Made by a program: the position numbers and the translations under genes
Shown: piece after piece, positions 35,616 through 61,963 of the stretch
How positions within the stretch are numbered: the first letter of the stretch is position 1
Layout: the number at the start of each line of letters is the position of its first letter
The notes under the pieces: generated by a model
Databases searched by the model: none
The model's input: the letters and a program-made list of their open reading frames with translations, nothing else
What the model was told of the DNA's origin: nothing
Source of the DNA: Acidobacteriota bacterium
GTDB taxonomy: Bacteria > Acidobacteriota > Polarisedimenticolia > Gp22-AA2
Length of the DNA: 64,000 bases
NCBI GenBank assembly: GCA_003223135.1
Contig: QHXX01000023.1
Coordinates: 1 to 64,000, forward strand
Direction: 5' to 3'

Positions 35616-35644
35616 TTTCTACCATACCCGGGCGGATGAATCAA
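35616..35644 (-). promoter_or_regulatory. Sigma-70-like promoter for HU gene (TTGATT-N17-TAGAAA)
   Basis: Minus strand TTGATTcatccgcccgggtatggTAGAAA. Confidence 0.5.
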
Positions 35645-35667
35645 GAAACACCCTCTTCCGCGCGGAG

Positions 35668-36020
35668 GCGGCGCCGGGGGGACGCACCCACCGGGCACGG
35701 GTCCGGCTTGCTGCGCAATCCTCCCCTCGCCTCGCCACGCGCCGCCCACCGCGCGGGAATGCGCGCGGCGGGGCCCCGGCGCGCGGTCTCAGACGGCCCG
35801 GCGAGCGCGTCCCCCCGGCGCCGCTCACCGTCGAGACTGCTTTCGTCGAAGGGCAAAACAGAAATCTCGCCCGGATTCACCGGTATTGACGGGTCGTCCC
35901 GCAGGTGAAGCGGCGGGCCGCAGCGCGGCGGGGCGATTTCGAGCCGCGCCGTGCGCGCCAGAGGGCCGCCGAATTCGCCGCGCGAGCGAGCATGAGCCAC
36001 GACGCGCTGCGGCCCGCCGC
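35668..36020. repeat. Bipartite palindromic element, copy A (left module 35668-35824, right module 35910-36020)
   Basis: Left: perfect 18-bp inverted repeat GCGGCGCCGGGGGGACGC/GCGTCCCCCCGGCGCCGC. Right: perfect 18-bp inverted repeat GCGGCGGGCCGCAGCGCG/CGCGCTGCGGCCCGCCGC. Homologous to 61420-61806. Confidence 0.88.
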
Positions 36021-36031
36021 CCGGCACGCGG

Positions 36032-61323: not shown

Positions 61324-61419
61324 GCGCGCTCCCCTTCGAAGCCGGGCGAATTATAGGTCACGCCTCGAAGAATAATCCAGGAGCCCGGCCTGCGCGGGCC
61401 GCCCGTCAGCCATCGCCGG

Positions 61420-61806
61420 GACGAGGCGCCGGCCCCTGCGCCCGCCGGGCACGGGTCCGGCTTGCTGCGCAAGCCTCCCCTCTCTTCGCCTTGCGCCGCC
61501 CGTCGCGCTGGATTGCGCGCGCCGGGTCCCCAGCGCAAGGTCTCAGAAGGCCCGGCGAACGCGGCGGCCGGCGCCTCGTCGCGACTACCCCGACGGTTCG
61601 ACCCACTGAGGGCCGGTCTCGATCAGTCGGGGCCACTCGCGGGGCGGCTCGCGCCGGCATCGAAATGAGGCTCCCCTGGGGCCGACCCAGGCTGAGTGGC
61701 GGGCCGCAACGCGGTGCGGCGATTTTGAGCCGCGCCATGCGGACGAGATGACTACCCGGAAGCCCGCGCGAGCGAATATGAGGCGCGCCGCGTTGCGACC
61801 CGCCAC
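61420..61806. repeat. Bipartite palindromic element, copy B (left module 61420-61580, right module 61696-61806)
   Basis: Left: perfect 15-bp inverted repeat GACGAGGCGCCGGCC/GGCCGGCGCCTCGTC. Right: 19-bp inverted repeat with one mismatch around GTGGCGGGCCGCAACGCGG/CCGCGTTGCGACCCGCCAC. Shares GGGCACGGGTCCGGCTTGCTGCGCAA and GCGATTT(C/T)GAGCCGCGCC with copy A. Confidence 0.88.
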
Positions 61807-61839
61807 CCCAGACTGAGGATGGCCCCGGGTGCTCTTACC

Positions 61840-61869
61840 TTGACACCTCCCGGAAACGTCCCATAGAAT
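61840..61869 (+). promoter_or_regulatory. Sigma-70-like promoter for tRNA (TTGACA-N18-TAGAAT)
   Basis: TTGACAcctcccggaaacgtcccaTAGAAT 17 nt upstream of the tRNA. Confidence 0.65.
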
Positions 61870-61886: not shown

Positions 61887-61963
61887 GGCGGTGTAGCTCA
61901 GATGGTTAGAGCACGCGGCTCATATCCGCGGAGTCCGGGGTTCGAATCCCTGCACCGCTACCA
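61887..61963 (+). tRNA. tRNA with CAT anticodon (elongator tRNA-Met most likely; tRNA-Ile2 not excluded), CCA encoded
   Basis: GGCGGTGTAGCTCAGATGGTTAGAGCACGCGGCTCATATCCGCGGAGTCCGGGGTTCGAATCCCTGCACCGCTACCA; cloverleaf with G1-U72 first pair. Confidence 0.93.

Follow-up and report, generated by a model that had tools for sequence, protein, structure and literature searches.

A non-autonomous, MITE-like DNA transposon family of Acidobacteria, probably inserted at a fixed spacing upstream of predicted sigma70 promoters

Elements of the IS10 group of the IS4 family generate a 9-bp target duplication, as does the element described here, and IS10 is targeted to a degenerate 9-bp sequence, not to promoters. 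In yeasts, Ty1/Ty3 (RNA polymerase III) and Tf1 are inserted at positions that are fixed relative to promoters, to which they are guided by the transcription machinery. A review of prokaryotic MITEs published in 2024 describes an intergenic preference and promoters carried inside the elements, and it lists no preference for a position upstream of host promoters that is defined to the base pair (PMC10969869). No report of promoter-targeted bacterial elements was found in the full-text literature, the coverage of which is incomplete, so that the novelty of such a system is provisional.

The window (the whole stretch of DNA analysed, 64,000 nt in length) contains two blocks, copy A (35663-36025) and copy B (61418-61811), each composed of an L module (about 165 nt) and an R module (about 119 nt). 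These blocks are very probably copies of a non-autonomous, MITE-like DNA transposon inserted at a fixed spacing upstream of predicted sigma70 promoters. Copy A, located at the HU promoter, and copy B, located at the tRNA-Met promoter, are older insertions of this element family. An earlier note on this DNA had delimited the two modules of copy A by perfect 18-bp inverted repeats, which are indeed present within arms at 35668-35696/35796-35824 and 35910-35934/35996-36020, and had pointed out a homologous pair at about 61420-61806, which was recovered in the same order and orientation, the L modules being 86% identical over 126 nt. The left module had been presented as a large palindrome; it is not a simple one, since it consists of an outer stem and two hairpins. 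Copies A and B fold better than dinucleotide shuffles (z of -5.0 and -5.4, respectively; 0 of 100 shuffles as good).

The layout of copy A, from left to right, begins with the promoter of the HU gene on the minus strand, with a -10 box (TAGAAA, 35616-35621) that is conserved in element-free relatives and a -35 box (TTGATT, 35639-35644) situated 18 nt from the L module. It continues with (i) the position expected for the left TIR from the spacing rule (35650-35661, plus strand), where the sequence is a poor match by inspection and too decayed to be recognised, (ii) the L module, a three-helix structure (35663-35828; plus-strand covariance model match, 129.8 bits), of which the functional strand would presumably be the minus strand, (iii) the spacer between the two model matches (35829-35906) and (iv) the R module, a long hairpin (35907-36025, plus strand, 112.5 bits). 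Copy A has neither a recognisable TIR nor a target duplication, and it is off register, the HU -35 box being about 7 bp too close compared with the canonical layout. Copy B comprises a decayed left TIR at the canonical position (61405-61416, minus strand; GCGATGGCTGAC read outward, 4 mismatches to GGGATAGCTCAG), an L module (61418-61581, plus strand, 145.6 bits), a spacer, again the interval between the model matches (61582-61692), an R module (61693-61811, plus strand, 119.7 bits) and a decayed right TIR (AGGATGGCCCCG; 61816-61827, plus strand, 4 mismatches) that lies, as in the canonical layout, 4 nt past the module. This copy is in register: its end is followed on the plus strand by a 12-bp interval (61828-61839), corresponding to the 9-bp target and 3 bp, by the -35 box TTGACA (61840-61845) and the -10 box TAGAAT (61864-61869), and by a tRNA-Met gene (61887-61963) predicted to be driven by the targeted promoter.

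Two covariance models (119 positions for R and 164 positions for L) were used to search for the family. The further copies that the earlier note had suggested looking for in the host and in related genomes were found, with 204 modules at 150 sites in six genomes, namely the host G000 and five relatives of the same family (G001 to G005). About 35 of these copies are in the host genome, a draft of 3.71 Mb. No module was detected by this search in G006, another member of the family, nor in genomes of other families, except for one weak L-model match in G010. Several draft contigs of G003 and G005 end at or near a module (e.g. L241, L250, L253), so copy numbers are probably underestimated. The hosts belong to one family of soil and groundwater Acidobacteria, and exact matches in named genomes came from metagenome-assembled Acidobacteria, including 'Acidobacteria bacterium isolate gp22'; the element belongs to the Acidobacteriota and, judging from this isolate name, probably to the class Polarisedimenticolia. 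The plasmid and phage collections searched gave no match, and a single match to a viral contig was taken as chance, this contig having a G+C content of 37% and no L-model module match.

Modules are arranged in a regular manner. With M defined as R on the plus strand or L on the minus strand, 51 of the 54 multi-module clusters are inverted pairs (M-, spacer, M+), which indicates that L and R are two variants of a single arm that can replace each other. Module combinations at orthologous intergenic sites often differ between species, and no conserved promoter motif was found in the spacer. Elements are almost strictly intergenic, as only one of 121 sites overlapped a gene called with a home-made codon-bias caller. 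A role as terminator was rejected because placement is mostly tandem or divergent, the ratio of 35 divergent to 5 convergent sites proving little by itself since divergent gaps are about four times longer in total.

The ends of the element were identified from a 540-bp unit that is present twice in the host, with 95% identity and unrelated surroundings; its occurrence at two unrelated sites allowed the TIRs to be defined, namely CTGAGnTATCCC at the left end and its complement GGGATAnCTCAG at the right end. In many copies the terminal motif is separated by 1 nt from L modules and by 4 (or 12) nt from R modules, on their outer side, and 19 ends with at most two mismatches to this motif were found at the fixed distance, against none in shuffles. 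When all loci were scanned, seven TIR pairs were flanked by a 9-bp target duplication matching at 8 or more of the 9 positions, against 0.27 expected; the same test on all pairs, including old decayed ends, was weak, and the clear result was obtained with recognisable TIR pairs alone. The duplication is perfect in three copies (TGCGTCTCG, CTTTGCCGG and CCCCGCCGC). The duplication-bearing copies measure 129-540 bp and contain no gene, the shorter deletion derivatives of 129-327 bp retaining both ends. Among the small forms, locus L274 (900-1029) is a minimal derivative of 129 bp with a single hairpin, both TIRs and a duplication at 8 of 9 positions, and locus L284 (811-893) is an 82-bp palindrome with both TIRs; both are located 11-12 bp upstream of a -35 box. 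Two loci of G007 (L273, L277) carry the same TIRs around interiors in which a search with the L model gave no match, so that the TIR family looks broader than the L and R modules.

Mobility is also apparent from the empty orthologous sites that the earlier note had suggested looking for, which were found at the HU-helicase site in five relatives (G001, G002, G004, G005 and G006). The mobile palindrome envisaged in that note is thus borne out in its ERIC/MITE-like version and not in its REP/BIME version. Under the latter, a Y1 (RAYT) transposase would act on single-stranded hairpins to mobilise a BIME/REPIN-type repeat, an explanation that would account for the inverted pairs of palindromes, the compensatory changes, the intergenic location and the conservation, inside each module, of G.A-rich motifs on one of the strands. 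It is nevertheless highly improbable: no RAYT/Y1 protein (PF01797) is encoded in any of the eight family genomes, whereas matches were obtained in the controls and in seven further genomes of the class; conventional TIRs and 9-bp duplications are not products of Y1 enzymes; and modules measure 110-165 nt, not 20-40 nt.

Searches for the transposase gave the following results. The IS4-family transposase domain PF01609 is absent from G000-G003, G005 and G007, and the single match in G004 was rejected as the source because its ends differ from those of the element. Candidates with PF01609 and PF00872 were likewise discarded, being one or two unrelated matches with ends that do not match. No autonomous element was found with a long TIR pattern in 41 genomes of the class, the assemblies being incomplete drafts, and proteins recurring beside modules reflected orthologous neighbourhoods only, with no shared transposase. 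Of the transposase families looked for (Y1, DDE_Tnp_1 and Transposase_mut), few members seem to be present in the family G000-G007.

Placement relative to promoters, predicted here from the consensus, is the unexpected property of the family, and one that the earlier note had not mentioned. In all seven copies that have retained the target duplication, the only ones to do so, the best-scoring predicted promoter lies on one side with its -35 box starting exactly 12 bp from the element end, giving a canonical layout of element end, 9-bp duplication, 3 bp and TTGACA, with a fixed placement at about -48 to -40. Across the family, a promoter is predicted 12-38 nt away from 66 of the 104 module ends that face a gene start, compared with 7 of the 57 that face a gene end, and a control window gave 13 of 104; for the other 38 start-facing ends, no promoter is recognisable where one is expected. 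The 5.5 kb of the expected zone contain 32 strict promoters, compared with 0.073 per kb overall, a density about 80 times higher. Outward from the modules, TTGAC peaks at 22-30 nt and is followed 16-18 nt further by a TAnnnT box, and no such peak was detected in the reverse direction. The -35 box lies at a tight spacing from the module (interquartile range 22-30) and the start codon at a loose one (84-151); the former spacing is also kept with the non-canonical -35 boxes TTTACC, TTTACA, TTGATC and TTGAAA.

A constant distance between the element end and a promoter could also be expected if the element itself carried an outward promoter, as some Correia copies do, the spacing then being internal to the element. 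Such an origin is the least probable of those considered and is refuted for the duplication-bearing copies, in which the 9-bp duplication sits between the element end and the promoter. Furthermore, the promoter sequences differ from site to site, and those of rplU and HU are present in element-free relatives (TTGATC, N17, TAGAAA for HU in G002, where the site is empty), so they belong to the host.

The main rival to targeting is selection after random insertion: the element would insert broadly, and only copies just upstream of promoters would be kept, either through the harm done by insertions elsewhere or through the action of the element end as an upstream activating or insulating sequence at a fixed phase to the promoter. 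The almost strictly intergenic location agrees with this, and a regulatory site would likewise show a fixed spacing to the -35 box. However, the youngest copies, with intact 9-bp duplications, are already at exactly 12 bp (7 of 7), and the purging of harmful insertions cannot give base-pair precision because there are many neutral intergenic positions upstream of promoters. Selection is accordingly disfavoured and considered unlikely, and promoter-targeted insertion of the element is strongly supported.

The targets include many housekeeping genes, such as those for HU, ribosomal protein L21 and tRNA-Met, nuoA, atpH, dnaX and hrcA. Four species carry elements at the rplU promoter, namely L/R in G000, R/R in G002, L in G005 and, in G007, a young L-bearing copy with a perfect duplication; the site is empty in three others (G001, G004 and G006). 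Elements are found at the sirtuin promoter in three species and at the tRNA-Met promoter in two. Comparison of the tRNA-Met and rplU copies showed that those of different species have their nearest relatives elsewhere, which suggests that insertion occurred repeatedly and independently. The four hits at rplU suggest that there are promoter hot spots, perhaps strong promoters.

Concerning module structure, the compensatory stem changes that had been noted between copies A and B proved to be general across many copies. Across 16 R copies, changes on both sides affect 15 of 30 pairs, and pairing is retained in 97.5% of cells, compared with 88% after shuffling and 21-52% after sliding; across 91 L matches, 38 of 54 pairs show such double changes and 95% of cells pair. 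Pairing is maintained through massive covariation, and 0 of 500 shuffles were as good. Where mismatches are conserved, they form tandem G.A motifs, which are located on the plus strand of R and the minus strand of L and occur in about one half to three quarters of copies. The stems of many copies extend 20-40 nt past the conserved core, the sequence of the extension being locus-specific. At many loci, for instance L207, L236, L167 and L202, complementarity reaches up to 40 nt beyond the modules, with arms that are paired yet unrelated between loci.

This covariation in R and L could be read as selection on RNA, in which case each locus would hold two outward-transcribed modules that are structured non-coding RNA genes or leaders. 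On the plus strand of R copies, G.T pairs do outnumber A.C mismatches (60 against 15), which, like the conserved tandem G.A motifs, would suit an RNA, but this asymmetry is missing from L copies (46 against 49), and compensatory changes alone are therefore no proof of RNA. Template-switch correction of palindromes is a possible source of such changes. In addition, the spacer lacks a conserved promoter motif, one module type is replaced by the other between orthologous sites, and close relatives have empty sites. An Rfam scan of the window at the gathering threshold returned tRNAs only and no match to the modules. A non-coding RNA is thus quite improbable, if somewhat less so than a RAYT-mobilised repeat. 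Overall, none of the findings that would have refuted the earlier note was made: further copies and strong covariation are present, no Rfam family matches, and orthologous sites are empty.

As regards mechanism, it is tentatively proposed, at slightly less than even confidence, that a transposase, or a host factor bound by it, reads the holoenzyme or the upstream promoter DNA and integrates the element at about -48 to -40 on sigma70 promoters. The system would then be the bacterial analogue of Ty3/Tf1 targeting, its structured ends protecting the promoter and the element from each other. The missing enzyme would be a DDE-type transposase, perhaps of the IS4/IS10 kind, making a 9-bp staggered cut at this position, and its autonomous partner element would be recognisable as a transposase gene flanked by CTGAGnTATCCCCAGTTTG. 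The guide to the site could be promoter-bound RNA polymerase (sigma region 4 or alpha-CTD) or the promoter DNA itself. The hairpin modules may provide a subterminal structure needed by the transposase, or insulation between the element and the host promoter.

Should insertion prove to be directed to promoters with base-pair precision, this family would represent a natural promoter-homing transposition system in bacteria, opening the question of how a transposase reads promoters; active promoters could then be mapped by insertion, and DNA could be placed just upstream of host genes without breaking them. Promoter homing would also explain the harmless high copy number of a parasite in a compact genome. 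Moreover, about 180 natural variants of two large hairpins offer a test of covariation as a sign of function versus templated repair in mobile palindromes.

In comparison with known systems, the element ends are presumably IS10-like, with a terminal sequence resembling CTGAnnnATCCCC, but unlike IS4/IS10 elements the family resides in a host genome without an IS4-family transposase. REP/BIME/REPIN sequences share the inverted palindrome pairs, the intergenic location and the compensatory changes, and differ by their RAYT, while the present element has TIRs, duplications and modules 3-5 times larger. Ty1/Ty3 and Tf1 are eukaryotic retrotransposons, whereas a bacterial DNA element is found here at sigma70 promoters, with a putative guiding contact. 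The closest resemblance is to prokaryotic MITEs such as Correia, Chunjie, QMITE2 and MITEAba12, which are likewise under about 550 bp, have TIRs and target duplications, contain no gene, and are intergenic, strongly folding and present in many copies (PMC10969869). Compared with these, the two covarying three-helix/hairpin modules of interchangeable type are unusual and, in contrast to promoter-carrying MITEs of the Correia type, the promoter lies outside the element.
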